DNA from: Alphaproteobacteria bacterium | GTDB taxonomy: Bacteria; Pseudomonadota; Alphaproteobacteria; Micropepsales; Micropepsaceae | NCBI GenBank assembly: GCA_016124635.1 | Contig: WGNJ01000018.1 | Span: forward strand, 124,001-188,000 | Length of the DNA stretch: 64,000 bases | Reading direction: 5' to 3' | Shown: piece after piece, positions 15,572 through 42,122 of the stretch | Layout of the letters: every line of letters begins with the position of its first letter | How positions within the stretch are numbered: the stretch's first letter is position 1 | Translations under genes and position numbers: made by a program | The notes under the pieces: generated by a model | What the model saw: only the letters and a program-made list of their open reading frames with translations | Databases searched by the model: none | What the model was told of the DNA's origin: nothing

Positions 15572-15646
15572 TGGGGTATAGCCAAGCGGTAAGGCAGCGG
15601 ATTTTGATTCCGCCATTCCCAGGTTCGAATCCTGGTACCCCAGCCA
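15572..15646 (+). tRNA. tRNA-Gln (anticodon TTG)
   Basis: A 75-nt cloverleaf: acceptor stem TGGGGTA/TACCCCA (15572-15578 with 15636-15642), anticodon stem GCGGA/TCCGC with loop TTTTGAT giving anticodon TTG, T-arm CCCAGG TTCGAAT CCTGG, and an encoded CCA end (15644-15646). The 3' part is the integration site of the genomic island that follows. Confidence 0.96.
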
Positions 15647-15650
15647 CTTC
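15629..15650 (+). repeat. attL: 22-bp direct repeat in the tRNA-Gln 3' end
   Basis: The 22 bp from 15629 to 15650 (T-arm 3' strand, acceptor 3' strand, CCA and four following bases) recur exactly at 42101-42122. This is the standard footprint of a tyrosine integrase using a tRNA 3' end. The integrase gene lies 70 bp inside it. Confidence 0.92.
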
Positions 15651-17511: not shown

Positions 17512-17757
17512 TCATTTGCCTTTTGGCTGCGTGTCTTTTCCAGACTCGAGTTTTCCAGACTCAAGCAATTTGGCACGATATCGTTCGATCGCTATTGGGC
17601 TAGCGCGCATAGCGGGAAATCGCTCTCGAAGCGTGACAAGGTCGTCGACCGTGCAGCCAAATTCTCCGGCCAATTCTTTCCAATTGGCGCCGGCTCTCAG
17701 CCGCTCGTTCACATAGGCAGCCGCTTTCTTTTGGTCCAGCTCATTATCCAACGGCAC
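17512..17757 (-). CDS. Small hypothetical protein with HTH-like segment
   Basis: The 81-aa protein reads from GTG at 17757, which overlaps the end of the upstream membrane-protein gene by 14 bp and follows GAACAAGG. It contains KKAAAYVNERLRAGANWKEL and then AGEFGCTVDDLVTLRERFP, a helix pattern resembling an HTH, and a charged C-terminus. The longer frame upstream only shadows the neighbouring gene. Function unknown; coupling suggests it works with the membrane protein. Confidence 0.5.
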   Translation of the reverse strand: MPLDNELDQKKAAAYVNERLRAGANWKELAGEFGCTVDDLVTLRERFPAMRASPIAIERYRAKLLESGKLESGKDTQPKGK

Positions 17758-22455: not shown

Positions 22456-25400
22456 TCACGAAGGAGAGTTCGCGTCTCTCGTCAATTCAAAAACCATGTC
22501 GCCGACGAACCGCTTGAACGACTCGTTCTCGACGAACTGCTTGTAGACCTGCGTATCGTCCTTCAGGAGGTGCTGCATCACCTTGGCCAGCGCCTCATCG
22601 TGGGCCATACGCGCTGTGTGCGGGGTGTTCTCCTTGGCGTTCTGATAGGCCGCGTCTGCGGCGACTTTCGGCGCGATGTCATCGCGAATCCGCTTCGCAA
22701 CCCGGTCAGTGTCAGAAAACAACGTCCCGAACTGATCGTTAAACGCCTTCAAAATGTTGCTCAGCCGATCCAGCTCGGCTTCCAACTTGCGACCGCCTGC
22801 GTTCGTGGGGACTGGGTCGATCTCTGCGTCCGTGTCCGCTAGGGCGATCTTCATCGCCGCTTTCTTTTCGACGCGATAGCTGTCCATGTCGATCGCTTCG
22901 AGGATGCCTTTGGCCAGGTCTTCCTCCTTTGGGGCTGGCAGCTTGGGCGTGAGCAGATCGAGGAAAATGGATAGCTTCTCCCACTCCGGGTTGCTGTAGG
23001 GGATCACCGACGACAGGAAGGCGTAGGTGCGGCAGAAGACCTTCGCCTTGCCCTTGAAGTCCACCTGGCCGTTCTCGTCGAGCTTGTCCACGTAGACGGC
23101 GACGCAGAGATCGAGGATCGGGTCCAGCTTGTCGCGATCGGCACCGTTGAGAAACAGCGCCACCACTTGCTGCACCTGCTCCGGTGCGTAGACCTGCGCT
23201 GCATCCAGCGCTCCCTTCAAATCGTGCAGCTTGTTCGGGTCGGTCTCCTCGGCGAGCAAGGTGGTCCGGTAGTAGTCCTGGAAGGCGAAGGTGATCGCTG
23301 CGCTGTTGTTTTGGAAGTCGAGCACGAAGCAGTCGTGCTTTTGCGGGTGGGCGCGGTTAAGGCGCGATAATGTCTGCACCGCTTTGATGCCGGACAGCGG
23401 TTTGTCCACGTACATCGTGTGCAACAGCGGTTCGTCGTAGCCGGTCTGGAATTTGTCGGCGCAAATCAAGAAGCGGTAGGGGTCGGTCTGGATCTTCCCG
23501 GCGATGTCGTTGCTGGAAAACCCGTTGAGCGATGCCTCGCTCACCTTCGTGCCTTTGTATTCATGCTCACCAGAGAAGGCGACGATCGCCTGATACGGGC
23601 TCTTGCGCTCCGCCAGATACGCTTTGAAGGCATGGAAGTATTGGATGGCCCGCTCGATGCCGCTGGTGATCACCATCGCTCGTGCCTCGCCACCGATCTT
23701 TCCAGTGGCCATCACTTGCTCGTGGAAGTGGTCCACCATGATCTCAGCCTTGAGCCGGATCGCGTGGTCATGGCTCTCGACGTAGCGGCGCAGTTTCTTC
23801 CGCGCCTTGTTGGTATCGAACTCCGGGTCGTCCTCAGTCTTCTTGACCAGTTTGTAGTAGCTGTCCACCGGCGTGTAGGCCTTGAGCACGTCAAGGATGA
23901 AGCCCTCTTCGATCGCCTGCTTCATGGTGTAGCTGTGGAAAGGCCGATGCTTGATCCTTCCCTCGGCGTCGGGCGGCAGCGGTTCCCCGAACATCTCCAG
24001 CGTCTTGTTCTTGGGTGTAGCGGTAAAGGCGAAGTAGCTGGCGTTGGTCAGCATCTTTCGCTCCGCCATGCGCTTCTCGAGTGCGGCGTTCACCGTGTCC
24101 TCTGGGTCGACATCTTCGTCATCCGCCGGGGCGCTGAGCGCCTGACTCATTGCTGCCGAGGTCTTGCCACCTTGGCTGGAATGCGCCTCGTCTATGACGA
24201 TGGCGAACGTTTTGCCGCCCTCGGTCGCGATCTCGTTGAGGATGAAGGGAAACTTCTGAACCGTCGAGACGATAATCTTTTTCCCCTCGACGATGAAGCG
24301 GCGAAGGTCGCCGGAGTGCTCTGCGTGTCCCACCGTGGCGCCCACCTGCATGAATTGCTTGATGGTGGTCTGAATCTGATTGTCGAGAATGCGCCGGTCG
24401 GTCACGACGATGACGGAGTCGAACACCTCCTTGTCACGGCGCTTCAATCCGATGAGCTGGTGCGATAGCCACGCGATGGAATTCGACTTCCCGCTACCCG
24501 CCGAGTGCTGGACCAAATAGCGCTCGCCCGCGCCCACTGCTCGCACATCGTCGAGGGCCTGGCGTACAAGCCTGAGCTGATGGTAGCGCGGCCAGACCTG
24601 CTTACGCCGCTTCTTGCGGGTGCGCGGGTCCTTCTCTTCGACGATCTGCGCGTAGTTCTCGAGGATGTTGGTCAAGCTCGATGGCGTCAACACCTCCTTC
24701 CAGAGGTAGTCCGTCTTGAGACCGTTGGGGTTGGGCGGATTGCCCGCTCCATCATTGTATCCTTTGTTGAACGGCAGGAACCACGAGCCCTTGCCGCGCA
24801 GTTCGGGGCACATGCGCACCTCGCTGTCGTCAACCGCGAAATGCACCACGCAGCGGCCGAACTCGAACAGCCGTTCACGCGGATCGCGGTCGCGCTTGTA
24901 CTGCTCAACGGCGTCAGCGACGGTTTGCTTGGTGAGGCTGTTCTTCAGTTCGAACGTAGCGATGGGCAGGCCGTTGATGAACAAGCACAGGTCGAGTGCA
25001 CGCCGCGTCTCGTCGGTGCTGTAGGCGAGCTGGCGTGTGATCGAGAAGCGGTTCTCGGCATGCAGCTTCTCCGCCTTGGCGTTGCCCGGTGACGGCGTGC
25101 CGTAGAAGAGGTCGAAGTGCAGCGGCCCGTGATCCACGCCCTTCCGGAGCACATCGATGGCGCCGCGCTTGCCGATCTCAGCCGACAGGCGGGCGAGGAA
25201 TTTGAGCCGATTGATGTCCTTGGCGTCGGTTGCATTGATCAGCGCGAGCTTCTTGAACGCCTCGGGCTGCGTTACGCGTAGGAAGGTGAAGAGCTGCGGC
25301 ACGTCGAGCGCGTGGGCGCGGTCGTAGTCCTTTGCGCTGCCGGCGGTGTAGCCGGTACCGCCATAAGCCGCCGGCGACTCTTCGAGCGTGTTCGATGCAG

Positions 25401-25476
25401 CGGCAAGGCCGTCCACGCCGGTCATGTGCCGCATGATCAGCGTTTCGAGACCCTTCTCGCTGACATCGGTGGTCAT
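22456..25476 (-). CDS. hsdR: Type I restriction endonuclease subunit HsdR
   Basis: The 1006-aa motor/nuclease subunit has the PD-(D/E)xK nuclease site (D162, then E176 and K178 in IATFELKN), the Walker A motif HSAGSGKS (324-331), the DEAH box VIDEAHSSQGG and the helicase motif FAFTATPKN. A C-terminal helical region probably contacts HsdM/HsdS. It translocates DNA with ATP and cleaves unmodified DNA at a distance from the recognition site. The ATG overlaps the preceding gene by 4 bp. All key residues are intact, so the enzyme looks functional. Confidence 0.95.
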   Translation of the reverse strand: MTTDVSEKGLETLIMRHMTGVDGLAAASNTLEESPAAYGGTGYTAGSAKDYDRAHALDVPQLFTFLRVTQPEAFKKLALINATDAKDINRLKFLARLSAEIGKRGAIDVLRKGVDHGPLHFDLFYGTPSPGNAKAEKLHAENRFSITRQLAYSTDETRRALDLCLFINGLPIATFELKNSLTKQTVADAVEQYKRDRDPRERLFEFGRCVVHFAVDDSEVRMCPELRGKGSWFLPFNKGYNDGAGNPPNPNGLKTDYLWKEVLTPSSLTNILENYAQIVEEKDPRTRKKRRKQVWPRYHQLRLVRQALDDVRAVGAGERYLVQHSAGSGKSNSIAWLSHQLIGLKRRDKEVFDSVIVVTDRRILDNQIQTTIKQFMQVGATVGHAEHSGDLRRFIVEGKKIIVSTVQKFPFILNEIATEGGKTFAIVIDEAHSSQGGKTSAAMSQALSAPADDEDVDPEDTVNAALEKRMAERKMLTNASYFAFTATPKNKTLEMFGEPLPPDAEGRIKHRPFHSYTMKQAIEEGFILDVLKAYTPVDSYYKLVKKTEDDPEFDTNKARKKLRRYVESHDHAIRLKAEIMVDHFHEQVMATGKIGGEARAMVITSGIERAIQYFHAFKAYLAERKSPYQAIVAFSGEHEYKGTKVSEASLNGFSSNDIAGKIQTDPYRFLICADKFQTGYDEPLLHTMYVDKPLSGIKAVQTLSRLNRAHPQKHDCFVLDFQNNSAAITFAFQDYYRTTLLAEETDPNKLHDLKGALDAAQVYAPEQVQQVVALFLNGADRDKLDPILDLCVAVYVDKLDENGQVDFKGKAKVFCRTYAFLSSVIPYSNPEWEKLSIFLDLLTPKLPAPKEEDLAKGILEAIDMDSYRVEKKAAMKIALADTDAEIDPVPTNAGGRKLEAELDRLSNILKAFNDQFGTLFSDTDRVAKRIRDDIAPKVAADAAYQNAKENTPHTARMAHDEALAKVMQHLLKDDTQVYKQFVENESFKRFVGDMVFELTRDANSPS

Positions 25477-26255
25477 CCAGTAACCCTGCTGCTTGCCGAC
25501 TGAGTGTGAACGTCGACCACGGCGGATCTGATCGCTATGGTTAGAGGCGTCCCGCCGACGTCGAACGTTCTGTCCCAGGCGTGTTCAGGGATTGTATCCT
25601 TCGACTGAGCCACTACACAGCGATGCCATTGCATATGGTTTCGCAGGAGGGTCCGGCGACCGTCGTCCATTTCGTGGGCGTCAAGAAAGCCCAGATAAAC
25701 GACTACGATCGGTATGCCCATTGATGCCAGCTTCCAGGAAAAGGCGAGCCGATTGCTGAGCTGGTAGTGGGAGTCGGCCGACAACGAAAAGCCCGGCATC
25801 AGTTCATTCCATGCCGCCGATGCCTCAGCCAACGCTGCTTCGATCTGCTGCCTGTTCGGGCTTGAAGCGCCGCATCTGTCGTCCGAGAACTCCCCCTCGT
25901 GGGCCTTTGCCTCGACCAAAACGAGGCCGGGGCGTGTCTCGACGCTGCATGTGCTCACCAAGTCCCAGTTCGGGGTATTGGCGCCGCCCGGCTGCTTCAG
26001 CCACCAGCCGGTGAGCGTTGCCCGATCCTGATCGGAGAGAAAGCCAGGCGTTTCTCCCAGCTTGGCCTCGTCCGGCTCCAGGAAGCCGCGAGGCATCCAA
26101 TGCTCCGCGGCGGTCACCCGAGCGTGAGGCGCGACCAACGAGTTGAGAAAGGCAGCAACCTCGCTGCGGGCGGCGCTTGTCAGCAGCAGGCAGCGCAAGC
26201 GACTGCCTTTGAACTCGCGCTCGCGAAACTTGATCGTGCGTTCTGCCGGGGTCAC
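25473..26255 (-). CDS. PD-(D/E)xK-like protein inside the type I restriction operon
   Basis: The 260-aa protein contains WDLVSTCSVETRPGLVLVEA followed by KAHEGEF, giving a D98...E115-x-K117 arrangement matching PD-(D/E)xK nuclease-fold enzymes. Around it are VVVYLGFLDAHEM and other beta-helix alternations fitting that fold. Its ATG overlaps hsdS by 4 bp and its stop overlaps hsdR by 4 bp, so it is made in step with the subunits. It is not a standard type I component. It could be an accessory nuclease or a structural helper; cleavage activity is inference. Confidence 0.7.
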   Translation of the reverse strand: MTPAERTIKFREREFKGSRLRCLLLTSAARSEVAAFLNSLVAPHARVTAAEHWMPRGFLEPDEAKLGETPGFLSDQDRATLTGWWLKQPGGANTPNWDLVSTCSVETRPGLVLVEAKAHEGEFSDDRCGASSPNRQQIEAALAEASAAWNELMPGFSLSADSHYQLSNRLAFSWKLASMGIPIVVVYLGFLDAHEMDDGRRTLLRNHMQWHRCVVAQSKDTIPEHAWDRTFDVGGTPLTIAIRSAVVDVHTQSASSRVTG

Positions 26256-27655
26256 GTGGTCCCCTCTTCCTCCACCTGTTCGGTCTCGTCGTCCAGGCCG
26301 GCGTCGTCCTCGACAAGATCGAGGGACGTCCCATCAGGCAATCGCGCTGCGACTTCGCGCACATCGAGCTTGCCGGTCACAACATCCGCGACCAACCGGA
26401 TGCGGCACTCGTGGAGAAGTTGGATCTCGCGCTCGAGGCGGTCGACAGCGCGTTCGATGTCACCGGTTTGCGACCGAATGCGTTCGACAATACTGTCCTG
26501 CTCGGCACGACTTGATGGAATCGGAATTACCATCTGCCCATAGCGTTTGGAGTTAAGGTTCGCTTGGTGCAGACTGACCAACGCATGACTTCTGGCGTAG
26601 CTCCAAAACGCCGTGCTGTTCAACAGATAGCTTAGCCAGATCGCATTGTACTCCGAGCGCGTGCGGAGACGAACCAGATACGACGCAAACGTGATTTCAT
26701 CTTCGGCGTCACCAGAGAAGATACCCACTTTGCCGACCAACTCCGGGCTGTTGGTTCGATTGAAAAGCAGGTCGTTCTTCTCCAGCAGTAGCCCCGGCGG
26801 CACAGCGGCGAGCCCTCCTTTTTCGGGAACAACTACCTTGCCATCGCGAATGTGGCCCATGGTCAATACCCGGATCCTTCCATCTCCACGCACATTCTCC
26901 GAGGTCCCATAATCCATTCGAACGAGGAGCTGTTTCAGTGGCCGCACCTCCCAATGCTGCGGAATGTCGCCGAGCCAGGGGATGCCGGAAGGTTTGAGGG
27001 GGATGGACGGGTCGAGGCCGCGGGTGACGGCACCGTGGATGATGGCCTGCTTCTGCTCGTTGAGCAGCGCGATTACCTTTCGCTTTGCCCGGATCGCCCG
27101 TTCCAGCCGCCCGTTCGCCCAGTTCAGAAACCGCACAATCGCCGCCTGCTCTTCGGGCGGGGGCACTGCGACAGGCATCCGCTTGAAGTGGGAGAAGTCC
27201 AGATTTTGACGGAGGCCTGATCCGTAGCCGTAGATCGCTTTGCTGGAGTCCCAGACGTTGAGAAACTGAAAGCCGAACTCCGGCATCACTCCGGCGATCG
27301 TTCGCAGCGCCAAGTAAGCCGACGTGATGATACCGCGATCCCGCACCATCCCGACACGCAGGCTGGTGTGATCGTTCTGAAGATCAGTCGTTCGAAGGAC
27401 GATGTCGCCCGGGTTGACGATCTGGTAGGTCTCGAATGATTCTGGAACCAGTCCGTGGAGCTTCTCTCTAGGCTTGATGATGATGCGCCCGTAGCTGAGG
27501 GAGAGCACGGTTTTCTCCTTCATGCCGTGGTTGCGATCGTGGTTGGGCGCGAAAGCACCGAACACAGGTCGAGTCTCCCAATGGCCGGGCACCCGCCCGA
27601 GCCATGGCGTCCCCGAGTCCTTGTACTCCGAATACGGCCTGAGGTCGGCAATCAT
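26252..27655 (-). CDS. hsdS: Type I restriction specificity subunit HsdS
   Basis: The 467-aa protein has two target-recognition domains. Each begins with a W(L)G(x)(I/V)P(x)HWE(x)RP signature (PWLGRVPGHWETRP near residue 20 and PWLGDIPQHWEVRP near 230) and ends in a conserved long helix (EEQAAIVRFLNWANGRLERA in the first half, EQDSIVERIRSQTGDIERAV in the second). TRDs define the bipartite DNA target, which cannot be predicted here. An acidic tail (EDDAGLDDETEQVEEEG) is unusual. Coupled by 4-bp overlaps on both sides. Confidence 0.93.
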   Translation of the reverse strand: MIADLRPYSEYKDSGTPWLGRVPGHWETRPVFGAFAPNHDRNHGMKEKTVLSLSYGRIIIKPREKLHGLVPESFETYQIVNPGDIVLRTTDLQNDHTSLRVGMVRDRGIITSAYLALRTIAGVMPEFGFQFLNVWDSSKAIYGYGSGLRQNLDFSHFKRMPVAVPPPEEQAAIVRFLNWANGRLERAIRAKRKVIALLNEQKQAIIHGAVTRGLDPSIPLKPSGIPWLGDIPQHWEVRPLKQLLVRMDYGTSENVRGDGRIRVLTMGHIRDGKVVVPEKGGLAAVPPGLLLEKNDLLFNRTNSPELVGKVGIFSGDAEDEITFASYLVRLRTRSEYNAIWLSYLLNSTAFWSYARSHALVSLHQANLNSKRYGQMVIPIPSSRAEQDSIVERIRSQTGDIERAVDRLEREIQLLHECRIRLVADVVTGKLDVREVAARLPDGTSLDLVEDDAGLDDETEQVEEEGTT

Positions 27656-29880
27656 CGTCGGAGCACCTGCTTGAACCAGAGCAGCGCCGCCTCGCCCTCT
27701 TTGCGGGTAACCTCGTCCACCGTTCTGCTGTGCCGGATGCCATTGCGCAGCTCGGCCAGCTGGTCAAATCGCTTGGCTAGCGTCTCCTTGTTCGCGAAGC
27801 GAGCCTGAAACAGCGGCCAGTTCGTCTTACTCAGGATCGCATCTTGGACCTCTCGCAAGTCGGCGTATTCAAGCCGACGCAACAGTGTCTGGTAATGGCT
27901 TTGATCGAGTGCAGCGTTCTTCTTTGCAGCTGCTTGAAGGCGCTCATCGATCTTCTGTAGAACGTGCGGAGGTAGGCCAGCGGCATCGTCGCCCAAGGCT
28001 TCAGCGATAGCTGCACGAAGAGTCAGTTCCACGACCTCCAATTGAGCATCGAGCTCGCGCAGTTGGGGGGCTAGGTCGAGGCGCTCCTTGACCAGTAGGT
28101 CCTCGATCGCATCCTGGAGCGTCCGTTGACGCTCGGCCAGAAATGCATCGAAGTCGTCCGGGCCGAAGGGATCGCGGCGTAGGATGTCAAAGGCTGCGGG
28201 AGAGACGAAGTGAGATTCCAAAATCGCCCGCACCGCGGCTTCGCCATTGGCGGCAATCAGCTCCGGCAGGTACTCGTTAGGCAGGCGATCGTTGATTACC
28301 TTGCGGTTTGTAGCAGCGGTTAGCGGTGTCCGATTCAGAATCGTATCGATGGCGCTGCCGAGTCCGTGCTCTTTGCCCCAGCTTTTGGGAACGATGTGAT
28401 GGTCATCCAGGTCGCCATATTGCGGGACTTTGCCGGCCATCCAGTCGCGCGCACCGCGAAGCACCAATAGATTAAAGATGCCGTTGTAGACGGAGCTCCC
28501 CCGTTTTGTCTCGCGCCGCAGGTCGAGTGTTTTGAAGCGCCCCCGAAACTCGCCGATGAGCGCCGGCTCGGCCAAGTCGTCGTCGAACCACGCCTTGACG
28601 TCCAAATAGTCGCGGGCGCTCATGGATTCGACTGATCCGGAATAACGGTTGGTGAACACGCTTGCCCAGTACCAATGGCGGCTCTTGCGCTGCGCGTCGA
28701 GTTGGCGGACCGCGGGCAAAGTGTCCGCCGCGACCTGAAGGGCCGCGAAGACCGGCAGGATCGACACATAGGGCAGGTATTGCGACGCAATGGCGCCGAA
28801 CTCCTGCGGGTGACGCAGGAGTTCAATTGTGTTCTGCAGCGCCTCGACCGCTTCGCGCCAACGCACCTCGAACTCGGTGATGTCGCGAACCAGCACCTCT
28901 TTGCGCAGTGAGCCGTCGGCCTCGCGCACTTTCTTTTCCTGACCTGGCAACATGAAGTAAAGGTACTTGGGCGAACAGTAGGCTTGCCGAAGGATGGACA
29001 TCACCTGGAGAATGTAGACGTTCATCCGCTCAGTTTGCACGAAGTCCAGTCGCGGCGCCGCATCGCGCCACAGGTGCTTGAGCTGCAGACCTCGCGGCTT
29101 GAGAAGCGCGTTTATCAAGTCAAAAACGTCGAGCCGTATGCCCCGGCTGTTGATCTGGGTGAAGATGTCACACACCTTGTCGAGCTCCAGCTCCTGGTCC
29201 AGTTCAATGTACGAGATCTGGAACTGCTGCGTGATGCCTTCCAGGTGCTTGTCGAACAGCCGCCCGTTCTCTGCATGCCTTTGGGCGATCGCGGCACCCT
29301 TCTCGTCGCCGGCAGCGAGTGCCGCCGCCTCTCTAGACTTCCAATGCTCCTCGTAACCGGTTGACCACTTCACGACGGCGCGGTCCCCTCGGCCTACGAT
29401 GGCAAGCGGAAACTTGTGTTTCTCGTACTGCTCATGGTCAGTGCCTAGCGTCCTCTCACCGGTTCGCGTCCAGTCGTACTCGAACGCCTCGTCGTAGGCT
29501 TCTTCCATGAAGCGATCGACGCGAATGAAGTATAGAAAACGATTGGCACGACTTGGCGCCGGCACATCAGGCGCCATGAATGCGTAGTACATGGCAGTGA
29601 GCCTCTGCTGACCGTCCAGAACGATGTGCTCAGGAACGCCTTGCCCTTGAAACCCGTAGATGGGCTCGCAGGCGAGCGACTCGAAGTTCTCTTTCTTCCC
29701 CTTCCAGAGCAGCAAGCTGCCAATGAAGTAATCGAGAAAGATGGAGCGCATGAGCTCACTGATGTCCCAGGGCTTCCACTCGAACTCTCGCTGGAAGTCC
29801 GGGATGACAAAGCGGCCCTCGCGTAGTCGGTTTACTAGCGTCATTAGGCTGACGTGATCGGGCCTCTGTGCGTCTTTCAT
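27652..29880 (-). CDS. DUF262-DUF1524 protein (GmrSD-like) inside the type I operon
   Basis: The 742-aa protein has an N-terminal DUF262 domain (IPDFQREFEWKPWDISELMR at 26-45, DGQQRLT at 89-95), a helical middle, and a His-Me-finger/DUF1524-like nuclease motif DDHHIVPKSW (492-501) with downstream Asn residues (LNRTPL, TNRKVIND). GmrSD-family type IV enzymes combine these two domains, use nucleotides through the DUF262 domain and cut modified DNA. A further ~200 residues after the HNH region are helical. The gene sits between hsdM and hsdS with 4-bp overlaps, so expression is tied to the type I complex. Confidence 0.85.
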   Translation of the reverse strand: MKDAQRPDHVSLMTLVNRLREGRFVIPDFQREFEWKPWDISELMRSIFLDYFIGSLLLWKGKKENFESLACEPIYGFQGQGVPEHIVLDGQQRLTAMYYAFMAPDVPAPSRANRFLYFIRVDRFMEEAYDEAFEYDWTRTGERTLGTDHEQYEKHKFPLAIVGRGDRAVVKWSTGYEEHWKSREAAALAAGDEKGAAIAQRHAENGRLFDKHLEGITQQFQISYIELDQELELDKVCDIFTQINSRGIRLDVFDLINALLKPRGLQLKHLWRDAAPRLDFVQTERMNVYILQVMSILRQAYCSPKYLYFMLPGQEKKVREADGSLRKEVLVRDITEFEVRWREAVEALQNTIELLRHPQEFGAIASQYLPYVSILPVFAALQVAADTLPAVRQLDAQRKSRHWYWASVFTNRYSGSVESMSARDYLDVKAWFDDDLAEPALIGEFRGRFKTLDLRRETKRGSSVYNGIFNLLVLRGARDWMAGKVPQYGDLDDHHIVPKSWGKEHGLGSAIDTILNRTPLTAATNRKVINDRLPNEYLPELIAANGEAAVRAILESHFVSPAAFDILRRDPFGPDDFDAFLAERQRTLQDAIEDLLVKERLDLAPQLRELDAQLEVVELTLRAAIAEALGDDAAGLPPHVLQKIDERLQAAAKKNAALDQSHYQTLLRRLEYADLREVQDAILSKTNWPLFQARFANKETLAKRFDQLAELRNGIRHSRTVDEVTRKEGEAALLWFKQVLRR

Positions 29881-32195
29881 TTCTCTCTTCCGCTTATAAT
29901 TTCGCTCAGCACCCCCTCGGCCTCCTTTTCGATGGCGAGGATGTCGGCGCTTATCGCCTCCAGCGTGCGCAGCGGCTGCGGCTTATAGAAGTGGCGGGTG
30001 AAGCTGACTTCGTAGCCGATCTTGGCGGCGTCTTCCTTGATCCAGGCATCGGGCGTGTAAGGCAGCACCTCGCGGCGGATGAATGCTTCGATGCCGCCGT
30101 CTTCCAGCAGCGGTACCTGCTCGCTATCGCGCAAATCGGAATCGGGCTCGTACTCGACGATCGCGGACTTGCCAGCCACGGTCGCCTCGAATAGGCCGCG
30201 CAGTGGGTCGGCCTTGGTCTTGCCTGGTTTATGCACCTTAGCGATGACGGGCGGGGCCGTCTCGACGCGCCAGCTCACGGCCTTGAGGATCTGCTTCAAG
30301 TCAGGGGCGGTGAGCTTGATGTCAGCGTTCTTGAGCGCACTGTCTACTCGGTCACGGAAGAGGTTATGGTCCTCGAACAGGGATCCACCCAGCGCTACGC
30401 GCAGCTTCGTGGCGACCTCGACCAGGCGCCCGTCGCGCTCCCAAGTTTTCGGGTTGAGTAGCTTCTTGCGCTTTTTTTCGGGCAAACCCTTCCTGGCGCT
30501 GCTGCCCTCTTCGTCCTCGTCTTCGTTCTCGTCTTCATCTTCGTCGTCGTTGCCCCAGTTGGCCAGGCGCTTTTCCAACGCAGTGGAGACCTTCTCGAAC
30601 TTGTTGAAGAGGTCGTCGCCGAATTCCTCGTATAGAACTGCGCGAATGTCTTCGTTGCCCGAGGTGAACCGCAGCGTGTCAATCGCCTTGAGCGTGAGTT
30701 GGCTGTGCAGACGCAATGGGCGTTCGACTGTGACCTTCCAATAGCCAAAGCCCGCATTGGGGAAGATCTTGGATTCCGGTGTTTCCTTGAACTCCAGAAA
30801 GGTGCGGCTAATGCGATCAATATCCTCTGGTGAGAGTTCACAGTTTTTCTTGCCGAGATTTTTGCGCAGCGGCTTAAACCACTGACTGGCATCAATGAGC
30901 TGCACCTGGCCCTTGCGGTGCGTGGGCTTTTTGTTCGATAGGACCCAGACATAGGTGGCGATGCCGGTGTTGTAGAAGAGGTTGAGCGGCAGAGCGACGA
31001 TGGCTTCGAGCCAGTCGTTCTCGATCAGCCAGCGGCGGATGTTACTTTCGCCCTGCCCGGCGTCGCCGGTGAACAGCGACGAACCGTTGTGGACCTCGGC
31101 GATGCGGCTACCCAGAGCCGACTTGTTGTTCATCTTCGACGCCATGTTGGCGAGGAAGAGCATCTGACCGTCGCTCGATCTGGTGACGAGCGAAAGTTCT
31201 TCGCTGTTGTGCATCACCTTGAATCGCGGGTCGCGCATCCCCTTCTTGCCGCCCATCGCCTCGAGGTCTTTCTTCCAGCTCTTGCCGTAGGGCGGGTTGG
31301 CGAGCATGAAATCGAACTCTTGCGCGGGAAAGGCATCATTCGAGAGCGTGGACCGGTCGGCGCCGCCGACAATGTGGTCGGCGCTTTCGCCTTCGCCCTT
31401 CAACAGCATGTCTGCCTTGCAAACCGCGTAGGTCTCTGGGTTGATCTCCTGGCCGTAGAGCAGAGTCTTCACTTGTTGATTCCGCTTTACGCCGATTGCG
31501 GTGAGCGTCTCTTCGGCTACCGTGAGCATACCGCCGGTCCCGCACGCGCAGTCGTAGAGCAAGTAGGTGCCGGAGCGAATCTCGGCCTCGATCGGTAGAA
31601 AGACGAGGTTCGCCATCAGGCGCACGGCGTCTCGCGGCGTCCAGTGTTCGCCAGCCTCCTCGTTGTTCTCCTCGTTGAACTTACGGACCAGCTCTTCAAA
31701 GACCGTGCCCATCGAGTGGTTGTCGATGCCGGCCGGCGAGAGGTCGATATCAGGATCGAGGAATTTACTGATCAGCGTGCCGATGGCGTCGGCCTTTGAC
31801 AGCGTCTGCAGTTGGTTGCGGAATTTGAAGTTGTCGAGGATGTCCTGGACATTGGGCGAGAAGCCGTTGAGGTAGTCTTCGAAATCAGCAAGAAGTTGTT
31901 GCTGACTGCCGCGGGATTTGAGGTCACGCAGCGTGAACTTCGACGTGTTGTAAAAGGCCTGCCCGGCAGCGTCGCACAGGGCTGCGCGTTGCTCTGTGAT
32001 CCGCGCCTCGTCCAGCATCTGCTTGGTGTCTAACACCTTCCGCTTCGTCGCCTCGAGCACCGCATCCAAGCGCCGAATGACGCACATGGGTAAAATGACG
32101 TCGGGATATTTGCCGCGCTTAAAGAGGTCGCGCAGGACGTCATCGGCGATTCCCCAGATGAAGGATACAATCTTGTTGTGGGTAGCTTGATCCAC
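29877..32195 (-). CDS. hsdM: Type I DNA methyltransferase subunit HsdM
   Basis: The 772-aa N6-adenine methyltransferase has the N-terminal HsdM helical domain, SAM-binding motif I YDCACGTGGML (Asp215 region) and catalytic motif IV ANPPYGKSW (NPPY at 300-303). It methylates the HsdS-defined target and is also required for restriction. A very acidic insertion (DDEDEDENEDEDEEG, near residue 550) is unusual for HsdM, and the protein is longer than the common ~500 residues. It is the first gene of the operon, and its start at 32195 faces a 360-bp intergenic region shared with a divergent hydrolase gene. Confidence 0.95.
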   Translation of the reverse strand: MDQATHNKIVSFIWGIADDVLRDLFKRGKYPDVILPMCVIRRLDAVLEATKRKVLDTKQMLDEARITEQRAALCDAAGQAFYNTSKFTLRDLKSRGSQQQLLADFEDYLNGFSPNVQDILDNFKFRNQLQTLSKADAIGTLISKFLDPDIDLSPAGIDNHSMGTVFEELVRKFNEENNEEAGEHWTPRDAVRLMANLVFLPIEAEIRSGTYLLYDCACGTGGMLTVAEETLTAIGVKRNQQVKTLLYGQEINPETYAVCKADMLLKGEGESADHIVGGADRSTLSNDAFPAQEFDFMLANPPYGKSWKKDLEAMGGKKGMRDPRFKVMHNSEELSLVTRSSDGQMLFLANMASKMNNKSALGSRIAEVHNGSSLFTGDAGQGESNIRRWLIENDWLEAIVALPLNLFYNTGIATYVWVLSNKKPTHRKGQVQLIDASQWFKPLRKNLGKKNCELSPEDIDRISRTFLEFKETPESKIFPNAGFGYWKVTVERPLRLHSQLTLKAIDTLRFTSGNEDIRAVLYEEFGDDLFNKFEKVSTALEKRLANWGNDDEDEDENEDEDEEGSSARKGLPEKKRKKLLNPKTWERDGRLVEVATKLRVALGGSLFEDHNLFRDRVDSALKNADIKLTAPDLKQILKAVSWRVETAPPVIAKVHKPGKTKADPLRGLFEATVAGKSAIVEYEPDSDLRDSEQVPLLEDGGIEAFIRREVLPYTPDAWIKEDAAKIGYEVSFTRHFYKPQPLRTLEAISADILAIEKEAEGVLSEIISGREK

Positions 32196-33281: not shown

Positions 33282-33896
33282 GTGAGCGGGGGTAAACGTG
33301 TGGCACTGTACGTTCGGGTGAGCACCGACGGGCAGTCGACAGAGAACCAGCGCCAAGAGTTGCAGCAGGTAGCGGAGCGACATGGGTGGAAGGTCGTGGC
33401 CACCTATGTCGACCGAGGTGTCTCCGGTGCAAAGGGGCGCGAGCAGCGGCCCCAGTTCAATGCGCTGTGGCAAGCAGTGGCACGCCGCGAAGTCGACCTC
33501 GTCGCATCGTGGTCCGTGGATCGCCTCGGACGCTCGCTGCAGGACCTCGTCAGCTTCTTGGGCGAACTGCGGGCGAAAGGCGTCGACCTTTACTTGCACC
33601 AGCAAGGCCTCGATACGTCGACCCCGGCGGGCAAGGCGATGTTTCAGATGATGGGTGTGTTTGCCGAGTTTGAGCGCGCCATGATTGTCGAGCGCGTGAA
33701 GGCCGGACTGCAGCGGGCGCGAAAGGAAGGGCGCGTCGGCGGTCGTCCGCGTGTACCCTCGAGGATCGAGGAGCGCGCTCGGCAGCTGCTGGCAGAGGGT
33801 ACGGGCATCAGGAAGACGGCCGAATTGCTGGGGATAGGAGTCAGCGTCGTTCAGCGCCTGAGAGCTGAGGCTGCATATGTGAAGCATGCGCGATGA
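33282..33896 (+). CDS. Serine recombinase (resolvase/invertase family)
   Basis: The 204-aa protein has the catalytic N-terminal domain YVRVSTDGQS (nucleophile Ser in VRVST), the conserved SVDRLGRSLQDLVSFLGEL (Arg pair) and the E-helix region FAEFERAMIVERVKAGLQRA. A short C-terminal HTH follows (AEGTGIRKTAELLGIGVSVV). The GTG start at 33282 follows GGAGGG with 7-nt spacing. It resembles small resolvases/invertases rather than large integrases. Possible target half-sites lie directly upstream. Confidence 0.92.
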   Translation: MSGGKRVALYVRVSTDGQSTENQRQELQQVAERHGWKVVATYVDRGVSGAKGREQRPQFNALWQAVARREVDLVASWSVDRLGRSLQDLVSFLGELRAKGVDLYLHQQGLDTSTPAGKAMFQMMGVFAEFERAMIVERVKAGLQRARKEGRVGGRPRVPSRIEERARQLLAEGTGIRKTAELLGIGVSVVQRLRAEAAYVKHAR

Positions 33897-35685: not shown

Positions 35686-35768
35686 GGATCCGGTCGCCTT
35701 TGGCTGATGCGCGGACAACGGGCGCTCCGGCCCGCGGAGGGTCCCCGGGTGAACTGAGGATTGCTCCG

Positions 35769-36902
35769 ATGGGTATGCGCGCCACGGCGTTACCGCAGCA
35801 TTTCTTCATCTCGTACTCAAGGGACGACGAGACTTATGTCGCTCGACTGAAGAGGCGCTTCGAAGCGAACGGGATTCCGGTTTGGATTGATACGAGGGAC
35901 GTCGTTCCCGGTTCGCAGAATTGGGAGCGATCCGTACGCCAGGCTCTCGATGTTTCTTTTGCATTGATCCTTGTCGCCTCACCCCGCGCCGCCAAGTCGG
36001 AATACGTGCAGACAGAGCTTGCACTGGCTAAGGACAAAGGCCTGTCGACAATCCCCATTTGGGTCACCGGAAACCGTTGGCTCGAATGTGTTCCACTGTC
36101 TGCAGGGCACATTCAGCACATCGATCTTCGAAGCGCGAAGTTCCCATTGGGTGTCAAGGTGCTCGTCCGTCACCTTCTGCAGGTGATAGCGCAAAAGAAA
36201 CCTCGTCACGCGTTGGTCCGCAACCCATTCGCCAAAACGCGCCGATCGCCCGGCCTAAGGCAATACGTTTCGATCTTCCCGAACGAATCCGATGATCGGA
36301 AGCTCGCCGCCTTCGATCCAGGCGCTTTCGATAGTCTGCAGAATCTACTGGGCGAACTGCACGCTAACTATCTAGCTCACAAGTTTCCGCCCCTGAGTTA
36401 CGGCCACCGATGGGTGCTGCAGGATCGGACGCAACGCGGTCAGTTCGTGGCGCCACAACGTATTCTTGCCCCGTGGGCCTGGCTGCAGCGACCGTTGAAG
36501 CCGATCTCACGCACGGCACCCGGATGGGGGCGCGAGCCTCTAGCCGCTTACGGCCTTACTTCGGAATCGGTATTCGTTGTAGTCGAACCCGATTTGCCCA
36601 ATAGATTCGGGCGCTCTCTGCGGCAGAACGCCTTCGGCCTGGCATTGAATAACTCCGAGCTATTGGCGGAGGTTCTCTACGGTCCCGGGAAGCAGCCGTG
36701 GCCGGCCTACCGTGCGGGCTATCTAAAGCTTGCGCCGGTCGCCGCGATCGAGCCGACGCGATTTGCACACACCGTCGTCGTTGAGGATCCGTGGGCCGGT
36801 CACGAACTTGCCGGGAACGTGTTGACTGAGACAAGAAAGCGGTTTGATTTGAAATCCTTCGAGAAGGCACACGCCGGTCCGCGCCGAAGGTTGCACCGCT
36901 AG
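35769..36902 (+). CDS. TIR-domain protein with unknown C-terminal domain
   Basis: The 377-aa protein opens with a TIR domain: FFISYSRDDETYVARLKRRF, WIDTRDVVPGSQNWERSV, and FALILVASPRAAKSEYVQTE with Glu83 at the NADase glutamate position. The C-terminal ~200 residues (PPLSYGHRWVLQDRTQRGQF onward) match nothing I know. Bacterial TIR proteins of defence systems cleave NAD+ or make cyclic-ADP-ribose signals. ATG at 35769 follows GAGGA with 8-nt spacing and begins at the TIR fold; a TTG 23 codons earlier is less likely. No SIR2, STING or NLR neighbour was seen. Confidence 0.85.
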   Translation: MGMRATALPQHFFISYSRDDETYVARLKRRFEANGIPVWIDTRDVVPGSQNWERSVRQALDVSFALILVASPRAAKSEYVQTELALAKDKGLSTIPIWVTGNRWLECVPLSAGHIQHIDLRSAKFPLGVKVLVRHLLQVIAQKKPRHALVRNPFAKTRRSPGLRQYVSIFPNESDDRKLAAFDPGAFDSLQNLLGELHANYLAHKFPPLSYGHRWVLQDRTQRGQFVAPQRILAPWAWLQRPLKPISRTAPGWGREPLAAYGLTSESVFVVVEPDLPNRFGRSLRQNAFGLALNNSELLAEVLYGPGKQPWPAYRAGYLKLAPVAAIEPTRFAHTVVVEDPWAGHELAGNVLTETRKRFDLKSFEKAHAGPRRRLHR

Positions 36903-36978: not shown

Positions 36979-37638
36979 CTACCAGGGAAGCCACGAACTG
37001 CCCTTCGATGAGGCGCCGTTGAGAGGCTCCAAGAAGCCCGACTTTTGCGCTTCACTGAGAAGTTCGTCTGCCGCACGTTCAGCGAGGGCGTCGCGGCTAT
37101 TGAAGACGGAGCCCCGCGTGTCGATGCTTGCTACGAATGCTGGCCTGAAGGTCGCCGCATCGATGATGTTCGCGGAAAAATTAGCCCAGGGTTTATAGAA
37201 TGTCTCTCCCGGAACGTAAGTCCCTGGGGTCGTCGTGCTTGTGATCGAAACCGTATTGCCAGTGACAACGCCTGAAGAGGTTGTCTGACCAGGATAGTAC
37301 GTGTCTGGCAGCTTTACTGCAGTCTTGCCTTCGGCAACGCCACCAAGGATTACGACCGTATCAAATCCGTCTGCCCTTACCTGAGACTTCCAGTCCTCCG
37401 CAGACGTAACTGAGTGGCGAGACATCCACACAACACCAGTCTGCACACTGTAGCCTTCGGCGCCCAAGGTTTGCGCAAACCTCCTCTCGGCGATCTGATC
37501 GAGTCTTGGATCGATCGCAGCAATCACCAGAACTGACTTCGATGCAATGCTCGGGCCCGTGACTGTCGAAATAGTGCTCGCGTGTGTGCAAGCGACAAGC
37601 AAAATGGAGAAGCAAGCAACCGCAATCTTCTTGATCAT
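36979..37638 (-). CDS. Putative lipoprotein
   Basis: The 219-aa protein has a lipoprotein signal, MIKKIAVACFSILLVACTHA, with lipobox LVAC. Cleavage would place Cys at the mature N-terminus. The mature part contains VLVIAAIDPRLDQIAERRFA and DGFDTVVILGGVAEGK, and a Ser/Thr/Val-rich middle. It would be anchored in the inner or outer membrane facing the periplasm. The gene is convergent with the TIR gene. No family recognised. Confidence 0.7.
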   Translation of the reverse strand: MIKKIAVACFSILLVACTHASTISTVTGPSIASKSVLVIAAIDPRLDQIAERRFAQTLGAEGYSVQTGVVWMSRHSVTSAEDWKSQVRADGFDTVVILGGVAEGKTAVKLPDTYYPGQTTSSGVVTGNTVSITSTTTPGTYVPGETFYKPWANFSANIIDAATFRPAFVASIDTRGSVFNSRDALAERAADELLSEAQKSGFLEPLNGASSKGSSWLPW

Positions 37639-38207
37639 GCCACCCATCCGCGACCATCAAACGTGTGCGCTGACGTAGTACTCGACTGCGGGCCAGTGCG
37701 TCCATTGCGTCGATGACACGTGCTGAAATAATTAGCACTCCGCCTTGTGCGGGCTTGCGGCCGGCGGGTGCAGCCCGCGACAAATGGTCGACACACTAGT
37801 TCTCGGCACTAGTGAGGCTCGCAGTCGTCACCACCACTTAGCTGTCGCATTGCCCCGCTCCTTTGCCCCCGACGTGCGGCTACAGGAATAAACACAATTG
37901 TCTTCCAAGAAGATCAAGCGTACATGCTTGCGCGTGCTTCACCGAGAAGAACGGGCCAAAGAGCCACAAAGCGTGAAGCACCGGCCCTTCGGGACCGCTC
38001 AAGGTCGTAACACAAACCGCCCTGCGTGGGCGTTACTCGGCGCACTCCACGACCAGTGCGACTCTCAAGACCACCACTGAAGAGCTGACGCATCTCCGTG
38101 TCCTGGAGTCCCATTGGGATCGACGGGCTGGATCGCAAGTCGACTTGCGCGACCAAAGCGCAGCGACTGCTGGCGCCCGCTCTCTTCTTACATCGCAGGA
38201 ATATCAA
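37639..38207. promoter_or_regulatory. Leader region upstream of the polymerase-like gene, with palindromes
   Basis: About 570 bp without a convincing gene. Two clear palindromes are CACTAGT/ACTAGTG (37794-37814, 7-nt loop) and the perfect 16-bp CGCAAGTCGACTTGCG (38134-38149), which ends 58 bp before the start codon. These look like operator sites for the gene downstream or for the lipoprotein gene upstream. Confidence 0.5.
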
Positions 38208-39572
38208 ATGACTGATGACAACATCGAAGTTCAAATCTCTGCCGACACATCAACCGAGGCCGACCCGATTGGGGCCAAAATCGCATTGGGCGAAGACCTG
38301 CGCAGGGCTCGCTACATGCCGCTCACCGGTTCATGCATCTCAAACGAAGCACTCAACCTCGTGAAACATGTGACAGCACGAGTTCTCCAAGATGACACTG
38401 CATCGAAGACCTGGAAGGAGGCAGGTCCAGCTCGAGTCGAACGCGCCGTCACCGCATTCCTGGCCGATCTCTTGTTCGCAGAGGAGCGCCAAGCCGGACT
38501 GTGGCTATTCCGCTCTGGCGTAAGCAACTCATTCTCTGGCGAGGAGGTTGGATATAGAGCCTATCTCCGCGTCAGACGAACACTTGCGCAAATGGGCCTG
38601 ATCGAAGAGCGCGTCGGCTTCAACCCTCGCGGCGAACTGGCCGGGAGGAGCTGGACGTCGCGTCTCCGGGGCACGCCCGCGCTGTTCGACCTTGCTCAGT
38701 CGCACGGCGTCGATATCAAAGATTGCGCCGCGCACTTCCGAAAGGGAACGCCCTCGACCGTCCTGGAGCTTCGCCGGCCCGTCGACGCGGGCCAGAAGCA
38801 TGTCGGCAAGCCTCGAAGCAAGCGCATGCGGTTCCAAGAGAGCTACCTCACACGCAGGCTCAAAACAGAAGTGCAGGAAATCAATACCTTCCTTGCTTCA
38901 CGCAAGATCGAGGGCTGCACACATGACGGCTTCAAGCGCATCTTCACCCATGCACCCAGGTTCAACTGGGACAAGCACGGGCGCCTCTACAGCGTCGGTC
39001 CCGAGAGCTACCAGCAGCTGCCTAAGGAGGAACGGCGACTGATCCAGATCGACAGGGAAAGCGTGGTCGAGCTGGACATACGCGCCTGCAGCCTCACGAT
39101 CGCCTACGCTCTTCTAGGCGAGCATCTTGATGTCTCCGCCGATCCTTATGCGATCGATGCCCTGCCCCGCGGCGTGGCGAAGTCGTGGGTCACCATGACG
39201 CTCGGGCATTCCGCGTTCCACAAGCGGTGGTCACGTGACGCCGTCGACAGCTACTTGGAAGGCAACCCCGGGGCCGATCGCTCTACGCTTGCGAAGCTTC
39301 ATCCCATTCAAGAGGTGCAGCGGCTCGTTCTTGAGCGCCATCCGGTGCTGTGTCGCTATCATGAGAGCGGGATCACGATGCTCGATCTCATGTTCAAGGA
39401 TAGCGAGATCATGGTGAACACCGTTCTCAGGCTGATCCGGCAACACCAAGCGCCGAGCTTGCCCGTCCACGACAGCCTGATCGTTCGCCTCAGCGACAGC
39501 GAGAGGGCGCACTGCACACTTCGCGAGGAGTTCAAACGCGTAGTCGGTACAGAACCTTACATCAAGATGTAG
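38208..39572 (+). CDS. Polymerase-A/T7-RNAP-like palm-domain protein, function unknown
   Basis: The 454-aa protein carries, in order, three motifs of single-subunit polymerases. The motif A-like stretch is VVELDIRACSLTIAYALLG (Asp290). The motif B/O-helix-like stretch is RGVAKSWVTMTLGHSAF (Arg321, Lys325, Gly333). The motif C-like stretch is LPVHDSLIV (His421-Asp422). The position that is the steric-gate Glu in DNA polymerase I (motif A Asp +5) is Ser295. The N-terminal half has a winged-helix-like stretch (GYRAYLRVRRTLAQMGLIEE). No exonuclease domain is present. ATG at 38208 follows AGGA with 7-nt spacing. I have seen relatives only as hypothetical proteins; primase, RNA polymerase or terminal transferase activity is inference. 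Confidence 0.6.
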   Translation: MTDDNIEVQISADTSTEADPIGAKIALGEDLRRARYMPLTGSCISNEALNLVKHVTARVLQDDTASKTWKEAGPARVERAVTAFLADLLFAEERQAGLWLFRSGVSNSFSGEEVGYRAYLRVRRTLAQMGLIEERVGFNPRGELAGRSWTSRLRGTPALFDLAQSHGVDIKDCAAHFRKGTPSTVLELRRPVDAGQKHVGKPRSKRMRFQESYLTRRLKTEVQEINTFLASRKIEGCTHDGFKRIFTHAPRFNWDKHGRLYSVGPESYQQLPKEERRLIQIDRESVVELDIRACSLTIAYALLGEHLDVSADPYAIDALPRGVAKSWVTMTLGHSAFHKRWSRDAVDSYLEGNPGADRSTLAKLHPIQEVQRLVLERHPVLCRYHESGITMLDLMFKDSEIMVNTVLRLIRQHQAPSLPVHDSLIVRLSDSERAHCTLREEFKRVVGTEPYIKM

Positions 39573-41604: not shown

Positions 41605-41705
41605 ATACTGACTCGTACAGAGACTCGCTGACGCGAGACCATAACGGCCTACCCGGCAGCGCCCAGCGAGTCTCCAGAGTCGTCTAGAGTCATCCTGGAG
41701 GGCAA
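41605..41705 (+). repeat. GANTC-rich repeat A, right copy
   Basis: ATACTGACTCGTACAGAG opens the copy and GCGAGTCTCCAGAGTCGTC then AGAGTCATCCT closes it; it matches 20771-20870. It holds five GANTC sites. Confidence 0.75.
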
Positions 41706-41820: not shown

Positions 41821-41930
41821 AATTGACTCTAGAGAGTCACTGGCCGGGCGTTGGCGGTAGGGGATACCCCGGCCTAGCCAAGAGGCGTCAGCGAGTCTCC
41901 TGAGTCATCTGGGAGTCACCTAGGGGCACT
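41821..41930 (+). repeat. GANTC-rich repeat B, right copy
   Basis: Contains TTGACTCTAGAGAGTCA, GGCGTTGG, GATACCCCGGCCTAGCCAAG and GCGAGTCTCCTGAGTCATC then GGGAGTCACCT. Matches 21363-21471 closely. Confidence 0.8.
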
Positions 41931-42021: not shown

Positions 42022-42039
42022 TCCCACATTGCTCCCACA
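42022..42039 (+). repeat. 18-bp direct repeat, copy 2 (near attR)
   Basis: TCCCACATTGCTCCCACA, identical to 15724-15741. It sits 79 bp left of attR, whereas the first copy sits 95 bp right of attL. Confidence 0.6.
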
Positions 42040-42100: not shown

Positions 42101-42122
42101 ATCCTGGTACCCCAGCCACTTC
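42101..42122 (+). repeat. attR: 22-bp direct repeat of the tRNA-Gln 3' end
   Basis: Exact copy of 15629-15650, without the rest of the tRNA. Together with attL it bounds the element. Sequence to the right returns to core metabolic genes. Confidence 0.92.

Follow-up and report, generated by a model that had tools for sequence, protein, structure and literature searches.

An alphaproteobacterial island that carries restriction-modification and TIR genes also encodes a 454-aa protein with the motifs of a nucleic acid polymerase, which raises the question whether this protein copies the island, makes RNA, acts in recombination or defends the cell. We analysed the protein within a window of 64,000 nucleotides (the whole stretch of DNA under study, to which all coordinates refer unless a locus or contig is named), together with its homologues, their neighbouring genes and the ends of the elements that carry them.

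The gene, its product and its motifs

The gene, P0001, occupies positions 38208-39572 on the + strand, and its 454-aa product is assigned below to the TV-Pol type of family A polymerases. An alternative start codon, TTG at 38145, lies in the same open frame; ATG 38208 was kept because AGGA stands just 5' of it. Motifs A, B and C, which the initial annotation had read in this protein, are borne out by the translation of 38208-39572 (+): VELDIRACSL contains the motif A catalytic Asp290 (codon 39075-39077, +), RGVAKSWVTMTLGHSAF contains Arg321, Lys325 and Gly333, the first two forming the RxxxK of motif B (codons 39168-39182, +), and LPVHDSLIV contains the His421-Asp422 pair of motif C, whose catalytic Asp422 is encoded at 39471-39473 (+). 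The protein is laid out as a winged-helix-like N-terminal domain (residues ~35-205) followed by a palm/fingers core (~210-454). Pfam gave no match to P0001 at E≤10 and no exonuclease or nuclease domain was recognised, the NCBIfam scan gave no match, and phmmer found none among PDB sequences. Among PHROGs, P0001 meets phrog_4756 at E 2.9e-30, a family whose function is given as unknown. The region upstream of the gene (37600-38260), searched for a structured RNA or an origin, gave a folding z of -1.33 and no direct repeats of length ≥10.

Predicted fold and superfamily placement

The AlphaFold2 model of P0001, built from 14 sequences, reached a mean pLDDT of 84.4 and a pTM of 0.77; pLDDT values in the palm are mostly 90-98. 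In the model a long helix (213-230) precedes the hairpin. Strand 284-292 contains Asp290, and the turn that joins strands 417-420 and 423-427 contains Asp422, a palm-like arrangement. Foldseek against the PDB returned family A DNA polymerases or their variants as the best 42 of the 50 matches listed, led by apPol and Taq (E ~1e-4) and followed by polymerases nu and theta and a phage PolI, while mitochondrial and T7 RNA polymerases came lower (E 0.014-0.03). With TM-scores of only 0.12-0.38, the similarity concerns the polymerase core and does not extend over the whole protein. In a viral structure library eleven proteins led at E <1e-15, several of them from named phages, and the replication protein of Zamilon virophage appeared at E 0.025.

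Profile comparison agrees with this placement. With hhalign, the match of the family profile to alphaproteobacterial PolA has a score of 44.7 (E 7e-5, probability 63%), while eight column-shuffled control alignments scored 13.5-18.0 and an unrelated integrase alignment 26.4; D290 (on the Asp of PolA DYSQ), GRLY (with TGRLS), R321/K325 and HD (with PolA HDE) all fall on PolA motifs. The same comparison with a single T7 RNA polymerase sequence gave no match (E 0.19). Moreover, the phrog_4756 profile finds G094:C2:6826-7395 at E 3.7e-4, which lies inside a PolA gene identified by PF00476 (G094:C2:6370-7506). P0001 is thus almost certainly a family A polymerase, and the initial description of the protein as a compact PolA/T7-superfamily polymerase with palm and fingers, in which Pfam recognises no exonuclease domain, is supported by both predicted fold and profiles.

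P0001 shares with bacterial DNA polymerase I the TGRLS...QNIP-like hairpin, motif A, RxxxK and HD, and differs from it in having no recognised exonuclease, another N-terminal domain and other steric-gate and O-helix residues. T7-like single-subunit RNA polymerases belong to the same superfamily and share HDS in motif C, but P0001 is about half their length and its fold match to them is weaker than that to PolA; it also has Gly at the Tyr639 position. The host assembly itself contains two PolA-type genes (G000:C23:1602-2747 and G000:C12:20116-21240, in open frames of 977 and 903 aa), which points to either a true second polA or contamination.

Modelled alone, residues 32-208 gave a pLDDT of 82 and a helix-helix-strand-strand order. 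Foldseek matches for this domain are weak (best E 0.04) and are mostly winged helices, among them MarR- and PadR-type regulators and the replication terminator protein, with a few to KH, Alba and ribosomal proteins. We infer that the N-terminal domain binds DNA.

Relatives and conservation of the active site

Residue counts were taken from a 42-row alignment that includes P0001. Six rows were dropped beforehand: L010 and L026, whose frames are broken or truncated, and L033-L036, which form a lineage whose active site is altered. Asp290, Lys325, Asp422 and Arg276 are kept in all 42 rows; Arg321, Arg259 (Lys in the remaining row) and Tyr314 in 41; and the fingers Asp, D312, as well as His421 in 38. 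Identity to P0001 is only 20-36% in the 20 relatives for which it was computed. The proposed catalytic residues therefore persist at a divergence where the initial caution, that likeness in short motifs may mislead, gives way to conservation beyond chance.

The gate site is far more variable. It holds His in 25 rows, Phe and Tyr in 4 each, Gln in 3, Asn in 2, and Ser, Glu, Met and Leu in one each, the single Ser being Ser295 of P0001. Thr329 of P0001 presumably corresponds to Phe762 of Pol I, a site with Phe in none of the 42 rows, and Gly333, eight residues after the motif B Lys, presumably to Pol I Tyr766 and T7 Tyr639, where aromatics are few (Phe in 4 and Tyr in 1 of 42).

Searches with tblastn found relatives in 90 phage records (75 from Vibrio, 12 from Aeromonas, 2 from Klebsiella and 1 from Pseudomonas) and in 3 plasmid records. 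With an eight-row profile, 30 of 385 genomes in the host's class proved to contain a family member, as did 16 of 299 in its phylum; 15 of these 16 belong to the host's class, its own genome included. Among named genomes, P0001 alone as query found no relatives; the four closest sequences found 12 loci, whose titles are all alphaproteobacterial. Four queries against viral contigs yielded no match for P0001 or A3, four for A2 and one for the Aeromonas phage protein, which was the same phage again.

The PHROG family phrog_4756 takes in proteins of phages such as Vibrio phage ICP1 and Aeromonas phage 4L372D. Its members belong to the same family as P0001 (E 7.2e-125 for the ICP1 protein), but they are annotated as of unknown function and stand in a phage setting instead of an integrase/resolvase element. 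Loci L004-L007 are phage stretches with a family member. In ICP1 (L005:7332-8636) and further large phages of Vibrio and Aeromonas it is annotated as hypothetical, and the homologue in Pseudomonas phage vB_PsaM_M1 is annotated as a DNA polymerase. Among the matches listed in a literature search, none joined ICP1 with "family a polymerase".

A divergent relative was observed in small genomes of one bacterial family (short loci L033, L034, L036 and L130-L139, and regions of up to 18 kb, L140-L148). Of the 32 genomes of this family 27 have it, including all five nearly complete ones, and in 9 of 9 regions examined it occupies one fixed site among core genes: folD, argG, YggT and a chorismate-binding enzyme by Pfam, and ccm-like genes by eye. 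The N-terminal domain of this relative is well kept. The motif A Asp is retained in 12 of 13 sequences, and the motif B Lys is replaced by Cys in 4 of 4. In motif C, all 13 sequences have Arg, Lys or Gln instead of the His, and two have Glu instead of the Asp. By its sequence, this relative looks like a mobile-element polymerase co-opted for another role, perhaps a DNA-binding one.

The element that carries the polymerase

The polymerase gene lies within an integrative element. A tRNA-Gln(TTG) gene at 15572-15646 (+) is the integration target; a 22-bp direct repeat, ATCCTGGTACCCCAGCCACTTC, covers its 3' end as attL (15629-15650, +) and recurs as an exact copy, attR, at 42101-42122 (+). The repeat pair thus delimits an island of 26.5 kb (~15651-42122). 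A tyrosine integrase with DUF6538 and Phage_integrase domains (15720-17414, +; Pfam 4.4e-09) begins 73 bp from the tRNA gene and clusters with the integrases of related elements. An 18-bp repeat, TCCCACATTGCTCCCACA, is found just inside the left end (15724-15741, +) and again inside the right end (42022-42039, +), and is a candidate integrase arm site. Short AGACTC/GAGTCT repeats also occur near both ends (17532-17565, 41620-41700 and 41885-41899) and are possible recombinase arm sites. A search with the joined flanks (416 bases) in 41 genomes of the host's family, its own included, found elsewhere essentially tRNA matches only, apart from a 52-bp segment of the right flank that matched in a single genome (G035).

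Between its ends the island encodes a 204-aa serine resolvase (33282-33896, +; Pfam Resolvase 3.8e-48), which matches the resolvases of related elements, an HD-domain protein and two probable cargo segments. One comprises the R, S and M genes of a type I restriction-modification system with a GmrSD-N protein and a 260-aa protein of unknown type (22456-32195, -), the other a TIR-domain protein (35700-36902, +; Pfam TIR_2 4.6e-21) that PADLOC also matches. This region was initially called a defence island. It does contain genuine restriction-modification, GmrSD-like and TIR genes, but they sit on an integrative element, and the recurrent neighbours of the polymerase are an integrase and a resolvase.

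Recurrent neighbours and related elements

The survey of homologue neighbourhoods that the initial annotation had called for was carried out at 14 loci of closer relatives: the window, a plasmid locus (L003) and L048-L059, the last of these a more distant relative. By tblastn, an integrase is present at 14 of the 14 and a resolvase at 13. No match depends on a protein finding itself; among the integrases the partial match at L052 (E 7e-10) is the weakest, and at L057, the locus without a resolvase, the stretch ends 0.6 kb past the polymerase. In contrast, 20 control regions of 20 kb, taken from ten genomes at fixed, round-numbered positions (three of the genomes have a family member elsewhere), gave an integrase in 1, a resolvase in 0 and both together in 0. 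Twenty further loci from the class-wide profile scan had an integrase in 16 and a resolvase in 5; two close relatives counted among these, L021 (locus L101) and L024 (L104), both have an integrase, and L104 alone of the two a resolvase. Only the integrase and resolvase clusters recur at more than 4 of the 14 loci, one more cluster being found in 4 and three in 2, although gene calling misses some frames. At no fewer than 8 of the 14 loci the polymerase directly follows an integrase or resolvase in the same direction, one small frame allowed. The part of the P0001 neighbourhood that was scanned showed no helicase, SSB or origin, neither a recurrent OB-fold SSB gene nor a helicase cluster was found in the 14 loci, and Pfam of chosen neighbours recognised no helicase apart from restriction subunit R.

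Several related elements have ends of the same kind. Exact tRNA-end repeats of 51 bp and 56 bp bound elements of 8.3 kb (L055) and 9.5 kb (L058, whose polymerase is split into two frames), repeats of 17 bp and 16 bp bound elements of 12.8 kb (L051) and 5.7 kb (L053), and L048 has a weak repeat of 14 bp. No tRNA-end repeat was found at L003 and L052, and a search for exact repeats of length ≥20 found none at L049, L050, L054, L056, L057 and L059. The 5.7-kb element, from Lichenibacterium ramalinae, consists of an integrase, the polymerase, an NYN-domain gene and a resolvase. Between two Qipengyuania loci, DNA alignment is limited to the integrase, the polymerase, the resolvase and one 86-bp stretch. 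In Microvirga zambiensis (L048:3854-13988), two TV-Pol genes, two resolvases and one integrase lie within ~10 kb, perhaps as tandem elements. From these arrangements P0001 appears to be a core gene of an integrative element that targets a tRNA gene, with the restriction and TIR genes as probable cargo.

Assignment to the TV-Pol family

Iyer, Abhiman and Aravind (2008; PMC2579912) described TV-Pols as a transposon/virus polymerase family of 400-600 residues with two metal-binding Asp, RxxxK, a fingers Asp, a hairpin Arg, a two-helix coiled-coil thumb and no nuclease, proposed that they prime synthesis, and reported a resolvase or lambda-type integrase as neighbours and restriction-rich integration hot spots as their setting. 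The P0001 family shares the minimal core, the two Asp, RxxxK, the fingers D312, the hairpin R259/R276 and the lack of a nuclease, and at P0001 integrase and resolvase neighbours and restriction genes are found as well. Their list includes Paracoccus and Roseovarius species, two genera that are, among others, also represented in the relatives of P0001. On these features and this context we file P0001 as a TV-Pol with good confidence. Some traits differ: the ends of P0001-type elements are tRNA-gene repeats, 13 of the 14 loci have both an integrase and a resolvase, and no D5-type helicase was seen in the neighbours of P0001 scanned. Furthermore, the paper predicts an all-helical extra N-terminal domain for one TV-Pol subgroup, whereas that of P0001 models as a winged helix, and the two are maybe not the same domain.

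The same paper names cyanophage Ma-LMM01 as a carrier. In this phage, gp030 adjoins two transposase genes and matches our family profile by hhalign at E 4.7e-5 (77 columns, 30% identity), a match that covers the hairpin, motif A and the Lys of RxxxK, with the Arg not aligned and motif C outside it; HMMER reaches E 0.03 only. Protein gp030 may well be the one meant, but gp134, annotated as a putative DNA primase, adjoins a second transposase pair and is another candidate.

Activity work on TV-Pols was found, in the portions of the literature available, only for CcPol and a close SCC relative, and the available text of PMC7581432 (2020) states that to its authors' knowledge no other TV-Pol had been characterised. 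According to the accessible portions of PMC10061031 and PMC7581432, the PolA-SSB primase CcPol-MP of SCC elements resembles P0001 in being a family A polymerase on a mobile element with site-specific recombinases, with a proposed role in copying that element. As described there, however, its operon includes a small OB-fold partner and a helicase, of which no recurrent counterpart was seen for P0001, and CcPol keeps the equivalents of Pol I Glu710 and Phe762 where P0001 has Ser295 and Thr329.

Proposed role and alternatives

We favour, with moderate confidence, the reading that P0001 is a TV-Pol in the core of its element that primes or copies the excised element, an activity predicted from sequence and model. 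The tyrosine integrase would recombine the two 22-bp repeats at tRNA-Gln and so release the element as a circle. On this circle the TV-Pol would start or extend DNA synthesis through two-metal chemistry at Asp290 and Asp422, with the winged-helix domain perhaps recognising element DNA. The serine resolvase would then turn the multimers that arise during copying into monomers, the integrase would re-insert the copies, and the restriction and TIR genes would travel as cargo. A replicative stage is expected because a resolvase often stands beside the polymerase, and multimers do not arise from excision and integration alone. Against this stand locus L101 without a resolvase, the distance of 21 kb between integrase and P0001 in the window, and the resolvase count of 5 in the 20 further loci. 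Copying of its element by P0001 is, on balance, reasonably probable; priming by it is possible. In a bolder and still tentative form of the proposal, integrase, TV-Pol and resolvase would make up a self-sufficient, helicase-free module for replication and mobility, in which a single chain combines origin recognition (by the winged helix), priming and synthesis, so that an element of less than 6 kb could leave its tRNA gene, copy itself and carry any cargo, such as the restriction and TIR genes of this island.

P0001 could instead be a small RNA polymerase or an RNA-making primase whose product is a primer or a transcript of the element. Its Ser at the gate site fits such an activity, as do the absence of Phe at the Phe762 site and the scarcity of aromatics at the Tyr766 site, the presence of T7 and mitochondrial RNA polymerases lower in the fold search, and weak PHROG matches to RNA polymerase around motif C, very weak for P0001 (E 0.043) and at E 0.017 for the relative L013, which also meets a PHROG DNA polymerase at E 0.12. 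The gate Ser had been compared to the small residue of some RNA polymerases; it is correctly read for P0001 but private to it, the other 41 rows having a larger residue and His being commonest. PolA DNA polymerases top the fold search, no promoter-recognition domain was recognised in P0001, and CcPol strongly prefers dNTPs according to the available text of PMC7581432, a partial guide only because CcPol keeps the Pol I Glu and Phe that P0001 does not have. None of the residues at the gate, Phe762 and Tyr766/Tyr639 sites settles the substrate. Because the Ser gate occurs in one of 42 rows and DNA polymerases (E 1e-4) rank before RNA polymerases, we consider RNA synthesis, suggested initially, as not supported and unlikely.

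A role in recombination, namely gap filling or end copying at excision and integration, would suit the position of the polymerase directly behind an integrase or resolvase, but the known reactions of tyrosine and serine recombinases need no DNA synthesis, and the ICP1 and Aeromonas phage stretches have no annotated integrase or resolvase (a third phage stretch, L004, has an annotated DNA invertase ~4 kb away); we regard this role as rather improbable. It is less probable still, to the point of being very doubtful, that P0001 is a defence enzyme of the island whose polymerising activity is triggered by phage, as in defence reverse transcriptases. The TIR gene lies 1.3 kb away, type I restriction genes share the island, and restriction-type genes are found near L003 (annotated methyltransferase and Vsr) and L058 (a weak Eco57I-like match), but PADLOC gives no match for P0001, recurrence beyond 4 of 14 loci is confined to integrase and resolvase, in the frames scanned at L053 and L055 neither a restriction gene nor a TIR gene was recognised, and homologues are also found in phage genomes. 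With no recurrent defence neighbour and no PADLOC match, a defence component was set aside. The probable function of P0001 is to copy the island, not to defend the cell.

Implications

Pfam and NCBIfam leave P0001 unlabelled and PHROGs gives its family no function. With the elements described here, which have defined ends and in one case comprise about four genes, it can be tested directly whether TV-Pols prime and copy their element as proposed. These elements also illustrate a route by which restriction and TIR genes may move between bacteria.
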